The notes under the pieces: model-generated
Seen by the model: only the letters and a program-made list of their open reading frames with translations
Databases searched by the model: none
Told to the model about the DNA's origin: nothing
In this document: piece by piece, positions 3,796 through 16,860 of the stretch
Layout of the letters: each line of letters opens with the position of its first letter
Position numbering within the stretch: the first letter of the stretch is position 1
Made by a program: the position numbers and the translations under genes
Source: a virus
Length of the DNA stretch: 21,101 bases
Direction: 5' to 3' (one strand)
IMG/VR virus record: IMGVR_UViG_3300017709_000045
Span: 1 to 21,101 of that record

Positions 3796-5391
3796 CTAAA
3801 ATCTCTTTCCTCTATTATCTAATGAATTGCCAATAGGTGTATATCCATATCTACCTTCTTTATTGGTAACTGCTGATGTTATCCTACCTGTCATTGAAGG
3901 AGGAGTCATATTAAGGTAATTTTTATTTAATTTACCTTCAACAATAAGTTTCGCGCCAAGAGTAGTTCTAAGTCGAGAATCATCATTTCTAAATGCTGAC
4001 CTTATTTCTTGTGTTGTAGGTTGTGTCTTAAATACTTCTTCATAGTGATCAAGACCTTTTATATCGGTTAACATATAGTCATTAGCATCAATCGCTACAT
4101 GTTTCTCTCCTTTTGCATATGCAAACTTAGCGAGTAATAATTTATTCTTTTGATTATTATTAGTTGCAGTATCTGTCAATTCATAATTGTTCGTAAAGAT
4201 ATTATCAACATCAATTGATTCTACGGTATTATAATCTGATGCTCCCATCCCACTTTCTGCTTCTTGACCAAAGTTTGCCATTAAATCGTTTATTGCAAGA
4301 ACACCAGAAATCGCACTCGCAGCACTAATAAACGTTGCTGCTGCAGCACTTGTTCCGACTGCACCTAGTGAAGTAGATGCTGCGAGCGCAAGAACAGAAC
4401 TGTTTGCTTTACTTGCATGTAATGACTTATCCGCACAACCTTTAAAGGTTCCGTGAAATATAGCAGTTTGTATTCCTGTTGGGTTTTGAGAACTATCATT
4501 CGCGGTTGATGTTTCTCTTGCTCCAGAATAAGTTCTTCCAGTATACCTAATTTCTTGACCACCTATCTGACCTTCAGTACCCCTTATGAATAATCCCTTA
4601 GAACCCATAATGTGAGTATTAAGAGATACAATATTTAAAGATTCAGTTGCAGTAACAAGCATATCAGTTCCGCAAGAAAGGTCATATTTACCCTGAACCG
4701 CATCTGTCCTATCACCTTTTACAACATAATGGTCATCTCCTAGTAAGAATTTTGTATTTGTTTTTACAACTCTTTCGGTCTTTGTTCCTAAAAACTTTTC
4801 ACTAGTATTTCCTGCTACCTCTATAACGTTATGAAGTTTAGTTTTTTGTGTATTATTACCTGCTACTTTTACATTATAGTCACCACCAACTTCTACGTTA
4901 TAGTCGCCACTTACTTTAAGATTAAGGTTTCCGTTGTATACAAGATTACCATGACCTTCAATAATTACGGTTTGGTCTCCTCCTGTTACTTCAACCTTAT
5001 TATTTAACGCGGATATTACAACCGTACCATCAGCACGTAACTCTACACCAGAACCTTTACGATGTTTAATAAGGACTCTTTCGCCACCCGGAGTGTCGTC
5101 CATCTCAATAACATGCCCGCTTGGAGTTTCATCTACTTGATTGAAAGGATACTGAGAAGGTAATTGTTCTGGAATATTTAAAGGAACTCCTATATCTCCC
5201 CCACCCGTGTAGAGTTCGTTTATCTTAGTTCCGAGTGCTGCTTTGTTAACTGAAGAACCAAAATTATATTCTCTCCTCGGATAATCACCTGAAGCATTCT
5301 GCATTCCATCTGCAGGAACTCCTTGAGAAAGTTCTTGCCCTAACTCACCTTCTGAAATTCTTCTTTGAAAGTTGTCTGTTTTAGTTGCCAT
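3796..5391 (-). CDS. 5: Central spike protein, gp5 C-terminal beta-helix type
   Basis: The 531-residue protein carries the needle part of a gp5/VgrG-type tail spike but neither the OB fold nor the lysozyme domain. Residues about 90-285 contain HVIEMDDTPGGERVLIKH followed by many short alternating strands (for example KVSGDYNVEVGGDYNVKVAG, 159-178), the valine-glycine repeat pattern of the intertwined trimeric beta-helix. Residues 1-90 form a polar leader. The C-terminal 245 residues include an alanine-rich hydrophobic stretch (about 333-372) not present in T4 gp5. The missing gp5 domains are encoded two genes upstream (8119-8949). The spike is expected to trimerise under the hub and puncture the outer membrane. 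The start has AAGGA about ten bases upstream. Confidence 0.8.
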   Translation of the reverse strand: MATKTDNFQRRISEGELGQELSQGVPADGMQNASGDYPRREYNFGSSVNKAALGTKINELYTGGGDIGVPLNIPEQLPSQYPFNQVDETPSGHVIEMDDTPGGERVLIKHRKGSGVELRADGTVVISALNNKVEVTGGDQTVIIEGHGNLVYNGNLNLKVSGDYNVEVGGDYNVKVAGNNTQKTKLHNVIEVAGNTSEKFLGTKTERVVKTNTKFLLGDDHYVVKGDRTDAVQGKYDLSCGTDMLVTATESLNIVSLNTHIMGSKGLFIRGTEGQIGGQEIRYTGRTYSGARETSTANDSSQNPTGIQTAIFHGTFKGCADKSLHASKANSSVLALAASTSLGAVGTSAAAATFISAASAISGVLAINDLMANFGQEAESGMGASDYNTVESIDVDNIFTNNYELTDTATNNNQKNKLLLAKFAYAKGEKHVAIDANDYMLTDIKGLDHYEEVFKTQPTTQEIRSAFRNDDSRLRTTLGAKLIVEGKLNKNYLNMTPPSMTGRITSAVTNKEGRYGYTPIGNSLDNRGKRF

Positions 5392-5409: not shown

Positions 5410-8109
5410 CTACTTATCATTACCTAATCTCCAGGATACATATCCTTCATCCCTTAAAAAGTCGCCAAGAGGTCTATTACTATGAGCACTAACACCACTG
5501 TTACCACACTGGAATGTTGCCATATCAAGATGAACGAAATTAGTGTATAAGTGTATACCCTGAAATTTTAATTCTCTTGCTTTTTGAACTAAGGTATATA
5601 ACTTTTCATGTGCTTTTGCATTATGATAAAATTTTGTTATACTCTTTTTATTTTGTGTAGCATGTGCTAGAGGGTCTATTTCTTCAAATGCCATTATTTG
5701 GAAATCAACCGCAACACCGTCTAAATGATTACTATTATCAGCACCCCCTATAGAAATGTTTTGTGCTTCAGTTCTAAACCCACTTGTTACTCTCAAATCA
5801 GAACCTATAGCGTTTGCTATTTGAAGTAATTTAGAAGGAATGTCTTTCCCTAATCCCCTAAATTCTGATGGGTCTACATTTTTTCCATTACTACTTTGAT
5901 ATGCATACTCAACTACAAACTCTCCGTTAGAAGGTCGTTCAATAGTTGGCAAAGGAACAGGAAGACCTTGTGCTATTCTGGATAAAGCACGTTGACGTGT
6001 AGCAAACCTACCAGAAGGAGTTTGTCTACTCGCAAAATCTAATTCGTTTTGACTATCGTCTGGAAATTCTGCGATAATATCTGTTCCATCTTCAAGTGTT
6101 GCACTTTGAGATATTAGTAGACCTTCTATAACACCTTCTTCCCAATCATCTAATTTTTGGTCTTCAACTTGTTTTCTATTAATTTTACCGAATAAGGAAT
6201 ATATGTATTCACTTACATCAAAGAACGGGTCAAGAAATTCTTGTTCATCTAGTGGTTCTTCTTCTCCGTCAGTGTCAGTAGAAAATAAAGATTTTAGTTC
6301 GTTATGACCATAAACTTCTCCTCCAGGAAGATGATTATAAAACGTTTTAAGGAATAGTTCTAATGTATCATACTGAGCGCGTGTAAATGATGCGCTTGAA
6401 TTGGTAAAATTAAGACTCTCTGTACTTGCTCTGTTAATACCACCTACCATAACAAGACCTATTGAAGTCTTATTAAAGTTGTAAGGTGCATGATCACCTT
6501 CTTGTTCAACACTTCTTCCTCTTTGTAATCTGCCATCACGCCTTATTACATAATGATAACCGATTTCTTCTTGTCCTAACTGAACCGCGAAATCATCTAT
6601 TTCTTCTGCACCTATATTTTTGTTTGTAAACGTTTCGGTTGCATGAATAATTGTGGAGTCTACATTTCTTCCACTTCTCATAACTCTTTGAAAAAACTCT
6701 TTTTCTAATTCTTCTACTGAACCTATGTATGAATACTTATCTATCTGTTTAAATTCAGCAACAGGAGGTTGAACCGCAACTTCTGATATAATACTCTCAA
6801 GTTGGTTCGTGAAGAAATCATTCTCACTAACTTCTTTTAGTTTATTTCTAAATGCGTCTTGAACTTCTTTTATCTGTGCTGCTGTAGCACCACTTTCTTT
6901 ACCTGCCTTTTCAATTCTCCTTAGAACTTCTTCTGCGTCTATACCATCTTCAGTAAAACTTCCTGCCCCTGTAAGAGGTTCAAATTTATTTAATAGAGTT
7001 GTCACATTTCCGTCAAGGATAGTCATATTAGCAACAGCGTTTACTCTTTTTGTACCACCCTGAACCAACCTATTAACTATATTTGCAGTTTGAATATCTG
7101 GTATATTAAATGAAGTTAATCTTTTAACTTCTGCAGTAAGAACTCCTGTCGCTGCTTCTGCCAAATCACTAATAATACCACCAAGTGAAAATTGATTAAC
7201 ATCAACTGCTCTACCAGCGATATTAGTGTTTAAATTAACAGAAATGCCATTAGCAGTTGCAGAAGAAATACTATTCGCAGCATTCCCTGCCTCGTTTGTT
7301 AAACTCTGACTCAAACCATTTATGCCAGCATCAACTTCACCTAACGTGTCTTTAACGACTTCGTTAAATGAGGTTGTAACACCTTCAATAGCACCATTAA
7401 TATGTTCCATAGCACCATTGTATGCACCTTTAATATCATCTATTAAACCTTGAATACCTGTTTCCCGTAAAATATTATCTTTGAGAGTAGTAAGTTTGTC
7501 TGTAAGACCTTGAAGAGGTGATATCTGAGGTAGTAATACACCTGCCGCACCTATAACACCAACCACTTTTAAAAGGGTTCCAAGGAAACCTCCTGAAGGT
7601 GCGCCCAAAACATCTGGAAGATTATCTAAAAATGTTTTCCATGATTCATTTCTTTCATTAACATCTTTAATAACTTTAATTCTTGTTAGTTCTATTGCTT
7701 GAGGTGCACCAGAACAATATGCTACCACGTTTTGTCCTGAACCATTACCCTCTAAACCAAAATCACCTTCTAGTTTACAAACCCCTACATCATATCTTGA
7801 TGCTTCATTACCAATAGATTTTACAAAACCTCCAAAGGTTTCGCCATCTGTTCCATCTCCTATTATTGATGAACCTTGAACCAATGCAGTTTCTATATTA
7901 GTTCGTACTTCTGCAGCATTACCTTGTAGGTTTGAAAGCACGTTTGTTGACACAGTAACTTCACAATCAAAATCTTGTAATGGTGTTCCTTCAAGCGATT
8001 CAGCAGTTAAATTAACAGTTTTAGGTATAGATTGCGATAAGTCAGAAAAAGATTTTCTTCTTGTTTCTGCAGCAAGTTGATTTACTTTATCAAGATTTCT
8101 TAAACCCAT
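5410..8109 (-). CDS. Tail-associated bifunctional peptidoglycan hydrolase: amidase plus M15 peptidase
   Basis: An 899-residue protein. Residues 1-450 are mostly small and polar with predicted helices and no recognised domain, probably a structural anchor. Residues about 483-637 look like an N-acetylmuramoyl-L-alanine amidase (Amidase_2/T7-lysozyme fold). The likely zinc ligands are His489 (STIIHATET), His602 (GHNEL) and Asp627 (LDPFFDV, where many relatives have CysProGly); the fold is supported by IGYHYVIRRDG and TSIGLVMVGG. Residues about 745-870 match Peptidase_M15, with SNHLDGVAVDF giving His795 and Asp802, and FVHLD giving His860. The protein would cleave the glycan-stem-peptide bond and a peptide cross-link during entry. 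It lies between the OB/lysozyme and beta-helix halves of gp5, and AGGAG stands seven bases before the ATG. Both enzyme calls are from motifs only. Confidence 0.8.
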   Translation of the reverse strand: MGLRNLDKVNQLAAETRRKSFSDLSQSIPKTVNLTAESLEGTPLQDFDCEVTVSTNVLSNLQGNAAEVRTNIETALVQGSSIIGDGTDGETFGGFVKSIGNEASRYDVGVCKLEGDFGLEGNGSGQNVVAYCSGAPQAIELTRIKVIKDVNERNESWKTFLDNLPDVLGAPSGGFLGTLLKVVGVIGAAGVLLPQISPLQGLTDKLTTLKDNILRETGIQGLIDDIKGAYNGAMEHINGAIEGVTTSFNEVVKDTLGEVDAGINGLSQSLTNEAGNAANSISSATANGISVNLNTNIAGRAVDVNQFSLGGIISDLAEAATGVLTAEVKRLTSFNIPDIQTANIVNRLVQGGTKRVNAVANMTILDGNVTTLLNKFEPLTGAGSFTEDGIDAEEVLRRIEKAGKESGATAAQIKEVQDAFRNKLKEVSENDFFTNQLESIISEVAVQPPVAEFKQIDKYSYIGSVEELEKEFFQRVMRSGRNVDSTIIHATETFTNKNIGAEEIDDFAVQLGQEEIGYHYVIRRDGRLQRGRSVEQEGDHAPYNFNKTSIGLVMVGGINRASTESLNFTNSSASFTRAQYDTLELFLKTFYNHLPGGEVYGHNELKSLFSTDTDGEEEPLDEQEFLDPFFDVSEYIYSLFGKINRKQVEDQKLDDWEEGVIEGLLISQSATLEDGTDIIAEFPDDSQNELDFASRQTPSGRFATRQRALSRIAQGLPVPLPTIERPSNGEFVVEYAYQSSNGKNVDPSEFRGLGKDIPSKLLQIANAIGSDLRVTSGFRTEAQNISIGGADNSNHLDGVAVDFQIMAFEEIDPLAHATQNKKSITKFYHNAKAHEKLYTLVQKARELKFQGIHLYTNFVHLDMATFQCGNSGVSAHSNRPLGDFLRDEGYVSWRLGNDK

Positions 8110-8118
8110 TAATTTCTC

Positions 8119-8949
8119 CTACTGAATATCAGAATAACTACCTATTGACTCAAGGTCACGTAGTTGTTTCAGGGACATTTTCAAATAGTATTTAGCGAAT
8201 ATTTTAAAGGAACCATTTTTTCCTCCAAATTTTTCAGACCTCAATAATCTAATATTAGCAGACCTTTGTGTACTGTTTAATTCGTGTGCAATAAATTCAA
8301 CTTGTTTAGTAAAAGATTTAGGATTATTAGTAAACTCTTTTAATTGTCTTAGTCTTGTACCTCTCCAACCCGCTATACCATATGGACCAGACTCTAAATC
8401 TCCTCCTGATAACATACCTGTTTGAGATAAATTTTCTGTAATTCCTATTGCTTGATTGTAACTATATCCTATATTTAAAAAGAACTGTAAAGTATATTGT
8501 AATCTAAAAGTTTTTACTTCGCCTGAAACAAGTGTTTTCTGATTACCATCATCTACATTAGCAGAGGTTACTATTAATGAATTGTCATCAACAATTATTT
8601 GTTTTGTATCTAATTGTATCTGAGAAGGTCTTTCCATTTTAGGTAATGAACCTAGTACGATAGGTGTCTGTGAGTTTTTACCATCCATAAACATACCAAA
8701 CACTAATGCGCTTGGTAATATGCGAGGTATCTTACCAATACCTGAAACCCCACCTTCGGTAGTTGGAAGAACGCATTGCGCCCATGGTAAATGGTCTTCA
8801 GGAATATCTTGTGTATTCTCGCTGTGTAATCCGTGTATGCGTATCTTTACTCTTCCTTCATATCCTGCTTCAGGAACTGAATTAACGACAGTCGCAATAA
8901 ACCATCTTGTACTATCACCATAGTATTCTGATAAAATAGGTCTCATCAT
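8119..8949 (-). CDS. 5: Baseplate hub OB-fold protein with tail-lysozyme-like domain (gp5 N-terminal part)
   Basis: The 276-residue protein has a gp5/VgrG-type OB domain at about residues 15-105: WFIATVVNSV, then GRVKIRIHGLHSE, then LPWAQCVLP, then PIVLGSLP. The second half (about 155-225) resembles the phage tail lysozyme family (Phage_lysozyme2): GYSYNQAIGITENLS, PYGIAGWRGTRLRQLKEF and QVEFIAHELN. At the place where the family normally has a Glu (GNLxxESG) this protein reads ENLSQTGML, so the general acid may be lost. Glu172 or Glu186 could stand in. The OB domain should bind the gp27-like hub, whose gene ends in a four-base ATGA overlap with this start. Combined with the beta-helix gene downstream it makes up a split gp5. 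Confidence 0.8.
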   Translation of the reverse strand: MMRPILSEYYGDSTRWFIATVVNSVPEAGYEGRVKIRIHGLHSENTQDIPEDHLPWAQCVLPTTEGGVSGIGKIPRILPSALVFGMFMDGKNSQTPIVLGSLPKMERPSQIQLDTKQIIVDDNSLIVTSANVDDGNQKTLVSGEVKTFRLQYTLQFFLNIGYSYNQAIGITENLSQTGMLSGGDLESGPYGIAGWRGTRLRQLKEFTNNPKSFTKQVEFIAHELNSTQRSANIRLLRSEKFGGKNGSFKIFAKYYLKMSLKQLRDLESIGSYSDIQ

Positions 8950-13495: not shown

Positions 13496-14206
13496 ATGGC
13501 ATTAAGAGTAGACGAGTTTTTATCTGAAGTTGCGAAAAGCGGAGGTATAGCGGAACCAACACTATATAACATTATCTTACCCACAATTAATAAAGAGTCT
13601 AGAGGTATGAATATATTATGTACAGATATAGAAATACCACAAAGACAAATCACAACCAAAGAACGAAGAATAGGAATGGACACTGTAAAAATAGCATATG
13701 GTGAAGTTCTTACAGACATAAATCTTAGTTTTATGCTTTTAAATGATTTCGGCGCAAGATATTATTTTGAATCTTGGCAAGGTACAGCATATGATCAAGA
13801 AACAAAACTTTTATCATACCATAGGGATATCGTTAAAGACGTAACAATTCAAGTCTTAAGAAAAGGTGTTGCTTTTGATATAACAAAGAAAAAACTATTT
13901 GATTCTGGTAAATTACCAAGTTCAATTGCTTCAAGACTTCCTCGCCTTGGTCCACTAGATTTTGCTCAAGGAGAGTTTGACTTAAACTATTTAACCACAG
14001 ATGATGTTATATATGAAGTAAAACTTATTGATGCATTTCCTACCTCTATGGCATCCCTTAGTATGGGAGCATCTGCAGATGGTTTAATAAAACAAACAGT
14101 ACAATTATCGTACAAAAACTTTAAAACAACATCAAAGTATAGTCAAGGAAAAGGAAGTCAACTTGGACAAGCACTTCTTGCTGGCGCGATGAGAAAAATC
14201 TTTTAA
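13496..14206 (+). CDS. 54: Baseplate tail-tube initiator, gp54-like
   Basis: A 236-residue protein, shorter than T4 gp54 (320), with a tail tube-like arrangement. It has an N-terminal helix (RVDEFLSEVAKSGG), AEPTLYNIILPT, then a membrane-free beta domain with LTDINLSFMLLNDFGARYYFESWQ, and a C-terminal block VIYEVKLIDAFPTSMASLSMGA characteristic of gp19/gp54 tube folds. gp54 binds gp48 and starts polymerisation of the gp19 tube. A second tube-like protein rather than gp54 is possible. I prefer gp54 because the gp48 partner gene is nearby and no sheath gene is adjacent. The ATG follows the preceding TAA after one base, with a weak ATAGG ribosome site. Confidence 0.65.
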   Translation: MALRVDEFLSEVAKSGGIAEPTLYNIILPTINKESRGMNILCTDIEIPQRQITTKERRIGMDTVKIAYGEVLTDINLSFMLLNDFGARYYFESWQGTAYDQETKLLSYHRDIVKDVTIQVLRKGVAFDITKKKLFDSGKLPSSIASRLPRLGPLDFAQGEFDLNYLTTDDVIYEVKLIDAFPTSMASLSMGASADGLIKQTVQLSYKNFKTTSKYSQGKGSQLGQALLAGAMRKIF

Positions 14207-14254: not shown

Positions 14255-14962
14255 ATGGCACTACCTAAGTTAAATGAATCTATTCGTTATGAAATAGTAA
14301 TACCCTCAACCAAGAGGGAAGTAACATATAGACCTTATCTTGTGAAAGAAGAAAAAATACTTTTACAAGCATTTGAAGCACAAGACGAAAAAACAGCAAT
14401 GAGAGCAATGGTTGATACAGTTATTGCTTGTATATACGATACAATAAACCCTAATCTATTGACAACATTTGATGTTGAATATTTGTTCAGTCAGATAAGA
14501 GCGAAATCAGTTGGAGAAACTTCTGTTCTGAATGGTACATGTAACGCAGAAGATTGTGACGCAAAAACAGAAGTTGAAATTGACTTGACCTCTCTTAATG
14601 TAGAATTACCTAAAGATGTAAGTAATCTTATTGAAATGAGTCCTGATATATCATTAGAATTAAAATATCCTTCTTATAATTCTTTTATGAAGCATTATAA
14701 AGAGGGAGTATCTGAATCAGAGTTTAGTATGAACATGGTTAGAGAATGTGTTATTTCTGTTAATACAGCAGACGAAAGAATAACGGAATGGTCAAATAAA
14801 GATATGGATGACTTTATAGATTCAATGACGACCAGTCAGTTTGAAAAGGTTGGGGAGTTTATTTCAAGTGCTCCAACACTTAAAAAAGAAGTAGAGTACA
14901 CTTGTGTAAAGTGTGGTAATGACAACAAATTAACATTGGAGGGTCTACAAGATTTTTTTTAA
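14255..14962 (+). CDS. 26: gp26-type baseplate hub assembly protein / tail assembly chaperone, zero-frame product
   Basis: A 235-residue protein of the T4 baseplate protein family (gp26-like; T4 gp26 has 208 residues). The N-terminal MALPKLNESIRYEIVIPST and RPYLVKEEKILLQAFE blocks are typical. Two cysteine pairs, Cys96/Cys101 and Cys217-x-x-Cys220 (YTCVKCGND), could hold zinc. The TAA stop follows directly after an eight-T run (14953-14960), and a conserved-looking acidic helical extension continues in the -1 frame. The gene stands directly before a tape-measure-like gene. That arrangement parallels the G/GT chaperone pairs of many tailed phages, in which a minority of ribosomes slip. The chaperone role is inferred from this layout; the family assignment rests on sequence pattern. 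Confidence 0.8.
   Translation: MALPKLNESIRYEIVIPSTKREVTYRPYLVKEEKILLQAFEAQDEKTAMRAMVDTVIACIYDTINPNLLTTFDVEYLFSQIRAKSVGETSVLNGTCNAEDCDAKTEVEIDLTSLNVELPKDVSNLIEMSPDISLELKYPSYNSFMKHYKEGVSESEFSMNMVRECVISVNTADERITEWSNKDMDDFIDSMTTSQFEKVGEFISSAPTLKKEVEYTCVKCGNDNKLTLEGLQDFF
14953..14959 (+). promoter_or_regulatory. Probable -1 ribosomal slippery site T TTT TTT
   Basis: In the zero frame the codons read GAT TTT TTT TAA. The heptamer T TTT TTT fits the X XXY YYZ rule and allows two phenylalanine tRNAs to re-pair one base back; the next codon would be TTA. The zero-frame stop codon lies immediately after the heptamer. A small stem (ATGC/GCAT, 14964-14976) follows four bases later, too weak to be counted as a firm stimulator. 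Confidence 0.7.
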
Positions 14963-15150
14963 TATGCCTCTCGCATGATAATTTGATTAATCATTTTCAA
15001 ACTAATTTTGCTTTGATGCAGCATTACAGATATTCATTACATGATATTGAAAATATGCATCCGTGGGAAAGAGAAGTTTATCTAACATTATTAGAGCAAC
15101 ATCTTGAAAAAGAGGCAGAAGAACATAGAAAAATGAATTCAGACTTTTAG
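14959..15150 (+). CDS. -1 frame extension of the gp26-type protein (GT-like)
   Basis: After a -1 slip, reading continues from TTA at 14959 for 63 codons to the TAG at 15148-15150, giving a total product of about 298 residues. The extension reads LICLSHDNLINHFQTNFALM and later HPWEREVYLTLLEQHLEKEA, a charged helical pattern seen in tail assembly chaperone C-termini and poorly explained as chance. The frame opens only after a TGA at 14920-14922. Its first internal ATG (15016) lacks a convincing ribosome site and would miss the conserved-looking first third. The tape-measure-like gene starts ten bases after the stop. A separate small protein from 15016 (44 residues) is the alternative. Confidence 0.65.
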   Translation, partial: LICLSHDNLINHFQTNFALMQHYRYSLHDIENMHPWEREVYLTLLEQHLEKEAEEHRKMNSDF

Positions 15151-15159
15151 GGAATAACA

Positions 15160-16860
15160 ATGGCAACCAAAAAACCAGTCGAAAAAGAAAAAACTTTAGC
15201 AGACGTAACTAAAGAAAACAAAAAACAAAATGTGCTTCTTGCTGAGCAAAGTACAAAACTGACTGGGATAAAGAGTTCGCAGCAGTTTACTAATGTTAAA
15301 TTAGATAAACAAATTGACCTATTTCAAAAATATTTTGACAGACTTAATGCTCAAAGAGGAGATGACGCAGAATCAGAAGCAGAATTATTAGCAGCATTAA
15401 AAGACCTTAAAAGTAAAGGTAAATCAGAAGAGAAGAAGCAAGAAAAAAGCGTAGGGGGTTTGTTAGGAATGCTTGGGCGTATTTTTGCGGGAATACGAGG
15501 GATACCAATGCTTCTTGGTGCGGCATTGGGTAGTGTTGGTACATTACTTTTTGGGAAGACAGGGTTCGCAATCGTAAAGGGTTTATCCAAGGCAATGTTT
15601 AGGTTCACAAAGTTCTTAATTAAAGCACCTTTTCAATTCGCGAAGTTTTTAGGAAAAGGGTTTGCGAAACTTCCAGGAATTAGAGGTTTATTTGCTGCTC
15701 GTCAAGCACGTGCCGCAAAGGCAGCGACGGGTTTAAGAGGTCTTGCGATGAGAGGAGTATCTCAAAAGCAGATTGCTAAAATGCCAAATATGTACGGGAA
15801 ACAATTTAGCGCACAAGCAAGAAGCATGACACCTCAACAATTTGCTAAAATGCAAAAAGGTGGAAGAGCACCACTTAGGATGCCTGCTTTCTTATCTAAT
15901 TTAAGAGGAGGAGGAAAGACAGCAAAAGATGCTTCAAAGGTTGGGAAAAGTAGTGGTATGCTTTCTGGTCTTTTTGCTAAGTTAGGTAAAATATTCCCTA
16001 CAATAACGAAAGGTGTAAAGGGGATGGGAAAATTCCTTGGAGCATTCCTTGTCCCACTTAGAATTATATTTACTGTATTTGAAACTGTTAAGGGTGCGCT
16101 TGATGGATTTAGTAGATTCAAAGAAGAAGGTTTGTTTGCAGGATTAGTTGCTGCCACTATAGGAGGTATAGGAGGCGCTCTTAAGGCAATCATTGGTTAT
16201 CCATTCGATTTAGTCAAAGATATAGCAGCATGGGTTTTAGGTAAGTTTGGCATGAATAATGCTGCCGAGTTCCTTAAAAGTTTCTCAGTCTCAGATATGA
16301 TTGGTAATTTGTTTGGTGCTATAACAGATAAGTTATTTTCTTTTGTAGATGCAATGAAAGATGAAACAGGAAAATTTTCAATAGGGAAAATTTTAAAAGT
16401 TGCTTTTGCTGGTATAATAGATATGTTCACCGCAATACCAAGAAAACTTTTGACTTCAGCAGCAGACTCACTTGAGGGAGGTAAGTTTGGATTTTTAGCA
16501 CCTGCTCTTAGAAAAACAGCGTCGTTTATAAAACTAGGGGATAATGTTGGTTTAGATGATGCATACGATGCAAGACGAGAAGAGAGAAAAGAATTTGATA
16601 AAGCAAAACTTGAGAAAAAAGAAGCAGATAATGCAGCAAAAATAGAGAAGAAAAAGAAGGAAGCAGCAGAAGCAGAAAGACAACAAAAGTTATTAGAAGC
16701 ACAAGAACTTGCTGCACTTAATGGTGGTGGTGGAGGTGTAGTTGATTCAAGTGTCACCTCAATAGATAATAGTAGTCAAACATTTACTGGTGGTGTTGAA
16801 TCAGCAAAAGACCCTATGGCAGACCCTAACATGCAACTCTTTATATCTTTAATGGGATAA
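15160..16860 (+). CDS. Tape-measure-like tail protein (gp29 analogue)
   Basis: A 566-residue protein close in length to T4 gp29 (590), the tail length determinator. The N-terminal 95 residues are charged and helical (coiled-coil-like, many Lys/Glu). Hydrophobic glycine-rich helices follow at about 98-180 and about 285-360, and the C-terminal part has a Lys/Glu/Ala coiled coil (about 475-520) followed by a five-glycine run. This pattern of coil, membrane-active helices and coil is usual for tape measure proteins. The gene directly follows the frameshifting chaperone-like gene, the conserved place for a tape measure. It has AGGGAATAAC before the ATG and ends at the cluster terminator. No zinc or enzyme motif is seen. 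The role is inferred from architecture and position. Confidence 0.6.
   Translation: MATKKPVEKEKTLADVTKENKKQNVLLAEQSTKLTGIKSSQQFTNVKLDKQIDLFQKYFDRLNAQRGDDAESEAELLAALKDLKSKGKSEEKKQEKSVGGLLGMLGRIFAGIRGIPMLLGAALGSVGTLLFGKTGFAIVKGLSKAMFRFTKFLIKAPFQFAKFLGKGFAKLPGIRGLFAARQARAAKAATGLRGLAMRGVSQKQIAKMPNMYGKQFSAQARSMTPQQFAKMQKGGRAPLRMPAFLSNLRGGGKTAKDASKVGKSSGMLSGLFAKLGKIFPTITKGVKGMGKFLGAFLVPLRIIFTVFETVKGALDGFSRFKEEGLFAGLVAATIGGIGGALKAIIGYPFDLVKDIAAWVLGKFGMNNAAEFLKSFSVSDMIGNLFGAITDKLFSFVDAMKDETGKFSIGKILKVAFAGIIDMFTAIPRKLLTSAADSLEGGKFGFLAPALRKTASFIKLGDNVGLDDAYDARREERKEFDKAKLEKKEADNAAKIEKKKKEAAEAERQQKLLEAQELAALNGGGGGVVDSSVTSIDNSSQTFTGGVESAKDPMADPNMQLFISLMG

Follow-up and report, generated by a model that had tools for sequence, protein, structure and literature searches.

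Organization of the gp26 locus

The DNA analysed here, referred to as the window, is the whole 21,101-nt (21.1-kb) record IMGVR_UViG_3300017709_000045 of a T4-like myovirus. In the named phage collection, its relatives belong mainly to marine phages of the Kyanoviridae type, and Vibrio and rhizobial phages are more distant. The features of the locus under study are listed in Table 1. The product of the gp26-family gene aligns over residues 11-235 with positions 3-218 of the 219 in the PF12322 profile, which covers the whole domain. The 3' end of this gene reads GAT TTT TTT TAA (14951-14962), and the heptamer T TTT TTT, close to the end of the short frame, is of the canonical -1 type with the pattern X XXY YYZ. 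A preliminary description of the window had pointed to this zero-frame ending and to a heptamer that allows a -1 slip, and the coordinates agree. The -1 frame entered at 14959 stays open for 63 codons before a TAG at 15148-15150, and the next ATG follows at 15160; the extension was thus rightly described as stopping just short of a tape-measure-like gene, with a gap of 9 bases rather than the ten given.

Table 1. Features of the gp26 locus in the window.
Feature	Position	Strand	Evidence
Tail tube protein gene, directly 5' of gp26	13496..14206	+	phrog_45 tail tube, E=1.3e-25
gp26 family, putative short (G-like) chaperone form, 235 aa	14255..14962	+	PF12322, E=1.4e-49; phrog_150, E=5e-51; AlphaFold2, mean pLDDT 91
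Slippery heptamer T TTT TTT in the gp26 frame	14953..14959	+	T TTT TTN present in all 177 loci
0-frame stop TAA, immediately 3' of the heptamer	14960..14962	+	Sequence
-1 frame extension (putative T-like domain, gp51 C-terminus homologue), 63 aa and TAG	14959..15150	+	phrog_634, E=1.7e-22; tblastn, 583 phage records; pN/pS 0.24 in codons 2-8
Candidate stimulatory RNA stem, TTTGA (14982-14986)/TCAAA (14997-15001)	14982..15001	+	z=-2.6 against synonymous-codon controls (codons 7-23); fold; pair counts in relatives
Tape-measure-like gene, 566 aa, directly downstream	15160..16860	+	Position; hydrophobic runs; parallels in Cr30 and RHph_I1_18

The gene order would be that of a chaperone locus, with the tail tube gene upstream identified by profile and the downstream ORF called tape-measure-like solely from its position and hydrophobic runs. 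The 566-aa product has no confident family match in domain and phrog profile searches; in RHph_I1_18 and Cr30, the gene just downstream of the slip locus carries a tape measure annotation.

The gp26 protein contains two Cys-containing motifs, CNAEDC and CVKCG, which resemble zinc-ribbon knuckles. The second of these is absent in some relatives, e.g. S-PM2 and S-WAM2.

The -1 extension as a protein domain

Used as a query by itself, the extension hits phrog_634, 'baseplate hub assembly catalyst' (gp51), as well as the C-terminus of phrog_150, and the tblastn matches in Table 1 were counted at E<=1. With the extension joined to gp26, phrog_150 is hit at 218.1 bits in place of 174.8, in a single continuous alignment. 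These sequence comparisons identify the extension as a genuine protein domain and a homologue of the T4 gp51 C-terminus, and the earlier view of the 63 codons as non-random holds. The window lacks a complete stand-alone gp51 gene and carries only this C-terminal part, in the -1 frame. In the AlphaFold2 predictions, gp26 is modelled confidently (mean pLDDT 91.1), and the extension is predicted to be helical (helices 9-23, 27-31 and 35-62; mean pLDDT 77).

Conservation of the extension begins at codon 2, with conserved columns at 4, 6 and 9 and then at 16 and 17, and the family-wide pN/pS is 0.24 for codons 2-8 and 0.16 for codons 9-19. In 58 of the 128 distinct loci compared, no ATG, GTG or TTG stands in the -1 frame between the preceding stop and extension codon 15. 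Some cyanophages have an ATG at extension codon 4, which is annotated as the start of gp51 in S-PM2 and P-SSM2, and a TTG at codon 9 (14983) of the extension is a formal alternative start in the window. In Aeh1, where the heptamer is T TTT TTC, the earliest ATG, GTG or TTG of the extension is codon 19. The extension is unannotated in S-WAM2, ACG-2014c, Ah1, VmeM-32, S13 and Aeh1, in which an apparent gap of approximately 160-215 bases separates gp26 from the next gene.

Conservation of the slip site in relatives

Three scans of viral contigs, together with named phages and the window, provided 177 loci with gp26, 128 of them distinct; KVP40 gp26 used as a query against the viral contigs returned two loci only. 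The heptamer T TTT TTN is present in the gp26 frame near the gene end at each of the 177 loci, and a -1 extension of 45-68 aa follows at every one, some of the shortest being possibly cut by a contig end. The expectation that the run, the 0-frame stop and the extension would be kept while the surrounding bases drift is therefore borne out, and relatives without an extension are not found in this set. The most common arrangement is T TTT TTC with the stop at +3 (109 loci), followed by T TTT TTT with the stop at 0 (46) or at +3 (13), T TTT TTC with the stop at 0 (5) and T TTT TTG with the stop at +3 (2). Overall, the 0-frame stop lies 0-3 nt past the heptamer in 175/177 loci, at 24 nt in one and at 27 nt in one.

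The last two are Mosig and RHph_I1_18, respectively, in which the stretch between heptamer and stop is an overlap read in both frames. RHph_I1_18 is also less typical in its heptamer, T TTT TTA, which lies 27 nt ahead of the stop.

Elsewhere in gp26, an in-frame T TTT TTN is seen at 0.027% of codons, and only 2 of the 72 other Phe-Phe pairs in the 128 distinct loci are spelled in this way. Given that 70% of the Phe codons in the gp26 body are TTT, the probability of finding TTT as the first Phe codon and a T at the end of the preceding codon every time is approximately 6e-6 over 18 clusters at 50% identity, a rough estimate that treats the clusters as independent. The slip site is found in KVP40, K575, Aeh1, Ah1, VmeM-32, S13, Mendera, Cr30, RHph_Y68 and AF3. 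As judged from these loci, the slip is distributed over the Kyanoviridae, part of the Straboviridae, the Pootjesviridae and others; this taxonomic reach is possibly a new detail.

RNA structure downstream of the slip site

The folding energy of 105 sequences was compared with that of controls in which the synonymous codons of the same locus were redrawn. The first 17 codons past the slip exhibit a mean z of -1.78, with p<=0.05 in 57% of the sequences, and windows starting at extension codon 4 exhibit a mean z of -1.68, compared with +0.04 to -0.53 (mean near -0.25; 2-16% at p<=0.05) for upstream gp26 windows. Farther downstream, z returns towards zero save for smaller dips. The strongest excess of structure is in the group with T TTT TTC and the stop at +3 (mean z -2.64). 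In the group of the window, the peak lies slightly farther on, at codons 7-23 (mean z -1.53; the window itself, -2.61).

In the group with T TTT TTT and the stop at +3 (e.g. L038, L044 and L069), a second structured region begins at extension codon 13, with a mean z of -3.95.

The sequence and register of the stem vary between clades. In the S-PM2 clade, 93.8% of the cells pair, with a C-G/U-A exchange at one pair; in the clade of the window, 11 cells are changed on both sides in one register, compared with 2.9 in shuffles, and a second pairing register exhibits weaker covariation. These pair counts, which come from related sequences, support the stems without proving them. The stem of the window is weak and starts approximately 22 nt past the heptamer, compared with the usual 5-9 nt; z in the window is -2.6 at best and near 0 in the stretch beginning at the slip. 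An Rfam search at the slip site returned no match. Fast-turning RNA stems downstream of the slip are possibly a new detail.

An interleaved pseudoknot in the window, combining ATGAT (14975-14979)/ATCAT (14990-14994) with TTTGA/TCAAA, appears possible by eye and was set aside; its ATGAT/ATCAT part overlaps codons for His-Asp and Asn-His, which are often conserved.

Relationship to gp26 and gp51 of T4 and other T4-like phages

In an hhalign comparison, the alignment of a fused-protein profile with T4 gp51 spans the junction (E=9.6e-13, columns 21-280), which indicates that T4 gp51 is a ready-made in-frame fusion; a search for fused versions in relatives, proposed in the preliminary description, thus finds one in T4 itself. 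The N-terminal part of the fused profile also aligns with T4 gp26, and this alignment ends at a Phe-Phe pair. T4 gp26 has no extension and ends GAG TTC TTT, so that Phe-Phe is kept in a spelling that is not slippery. The two systems share the gp26 domain, the gp51 C-terminal domain and a set of one short and one long protein. However, T4 has lost the slippery codons and encodes gp26 and gp51 as separate genes on opposite strands, whereas in the window a -1 slip would make both proteins from one gene. In 44RR gp26, the Phe-Phe pair is lost, and in Slopekvirus phiKp_23 both forms are apparently adjacent genes.

The gp26 and short 'gp51' of cyanophages and KVP40 (S-PM2, P-SSM2, KVP40) are closer to the window, with the same gene, a T TTT TTC slip site and a homologous -1 extension. 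These systems are annotated as two genes or with the extension left unannotated, and the clade of the window differs in having T TTT TTT with the stop immediately after. Somewhat more likely than not is a history in which the slip goes back to an ancestor of the wider T4-like group, with the position of the RNA stem kept while its sequence and register turn over, and in which T4-type phages and Slopekvirus replaced the slip through duplication of the chaperone gene and lost the slippery codons. The contrast with T4 may be regarded as a natural experiment in which a frameshift would have been replaced by gene duplication.

Proposed frameshift and alternative explanations

The features described above are very probably explained by a programmed -1 ribosomal frameshift that yields a pair of tail assembly chaperones from a single mRNA, gp26 (G-like) and gp26-gp51 (GT-like). 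The majority of ribosomes would read GAT TTT TTT TAA and release the 235-aa gp26, and a fraction would slip back by one base on T TTT TTT, add 63 residues and produce a 298-aa gp26-gp51 fusion. The slip would be aided by the adjoining stop, and perhaps by RNA structure approximately 20-40 nt downstream. The sequences show a conserved slip site and extension, local RNA structure, homology to T4 gp26/gp51 and the gene order; that ribosomes slip, and at what rate, is inferred. On the lambda model, the predicted role of the short form is to coat the tape measure protein and that of the extension is to bring in tail tube subunits.

Many cyanophage annotations assume instead that the extension is a separate gp51 gene, with a start close to the gp26 stop that depends on re-initiation or coupling. 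The ATG at codon 4 annotated in S-PM2 and P-SSM2 and the TTG at codon 9 of the window agree with such a start, but the 58 of 128 loci that lack a start codon up to codon 15 nevertheless share the conserved columns 4, 6 and 9 in that very region, and these loci rule out a separate start as a general rule. The extension contains no conserved ATG of its own; a start at such an ATG with a ribosome site in relatives would, according to the preliminary description, have spoken against a slip. Moreover, a separate gene leaves the invariant heptamer unexplained and fits neither Aeh1, where no start codon precedes codon 19, nor T4 gp51, which is fused across the junction. We consider a separate gp51 gene very unlikely.

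Slippage of the RNA polymerase on the run of T's, which would produce the fused frame in the transcript, is less likely again. The window has eight T's, a run that is possibly long enough for polymerase slippage, but in most relatives the run is just six T's long and is followed by C, or in two of them by G, and little slipping of the polymerase is expected at such a length. Ribosomal slipping also agrees with the phase of the heptamer in the gp26 frame and with the RNA structure downstream of it. That gp26 and the extension form one ordinary open frame broken by an under-called ninth T, as the preliminary description considered for this homopolymer, which here lies in a metagenomic contig, has a negligible probability: two separate contigs (L004 and L005) at 97% identity give the same eight T's, and the same frame relation in cultured isolates and in relatives with T6C, T6G or T7 and a further codon before the stop excludes a sequencing error as the general cause in the family.

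Comparison with other tail assembly chaperones and previous studies

The proposed frameshift in gp26 resembles that of lambda gpG/gpGT and the P2-type chaperones in having a -1 slip where the short gene ends, a short extension and a putative site between tail tube and tape-measure-like genes. In profile-based searching of the PDB sequences, no chaperone came up and no sequence similarity to the lambda or P2-type chaperones was detected. With Foldseek, the gp26 model matched gp26 relatives in the viral library; against the PDB, nothing was found at E<=0.001, and the recognisable phage chaperone match was to HK97 (2ob9_B; probability 0.87, E=0.46, TMt 0.41 over 63 columns), a weak one that does not amount to proof. 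The tail assembly chaperone of the Vandenendeviridae and Andersonviridae, with a -1 slip on GTTTTT (PMC12846349), is likewise a myophage chaperone with a poly-T slip; these are different phage families from that of the window.

In a 2016 review (PMC5009743), the G-T slip is said to be conserved widely among long-tailed phages 'except T4'. The tail assembly chaperones of T4-like phages were identified in a study by Vladimirov, Gautam and Davidson (Virology 2022, 566:9-15), to which later papers (PMC10885494 and PMC12846349) attribute the gp26/gp51-type chaperones and a poly-T slip in T4-like phages. PMC10885494, citing the same study, adds that in place of a frameshift some T4-like phages carry a short gene together with a longer, fused one. 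The link between a T4-like gp26 and the G/GT chaperones that was drawn in the preliminary description is supported; the pair and a poly-T slip in T4-like phages have apparently been published. The mechanism is well known in phages and, going by these accounts, appears to be already known in T4-like phages, and the window appears to be a further clear example.

Sullivan et al. (2010; PMC3037559) reported that the gp51 of cyanophages and marine vibriophages lacks about the first 200 residues, that cyanophage gp51 has only ~20% of the usual length and that gp51 is seemingly missing in Aeh1. The proposed frameshift would account for the short gp51 and for its apparent absence from Aeh1, where the extension is there with no early start codon, and this reading of the 'short' and 'missing' gp51 is possibly new. 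It would correct the annotation in an abundant group of marine phages, in which the 'short gp51' would be the tail end of a frameshifted chaperone and not a gene of its own.

Other features of the window

On the minus strand of the window, a gp5-type tail lysozyme/needle is apparently encoded in two genes, an N-terminal one at 8119-8949 (positions 15-109 of the phrog_430 profile) and a C-terminal one at 3796-5391 (positions 332-548 of the same profile). Between the two halves lies an 899-aa ORF (5410-8109, minus strand) with amidase and endolysin/peptidase matches.
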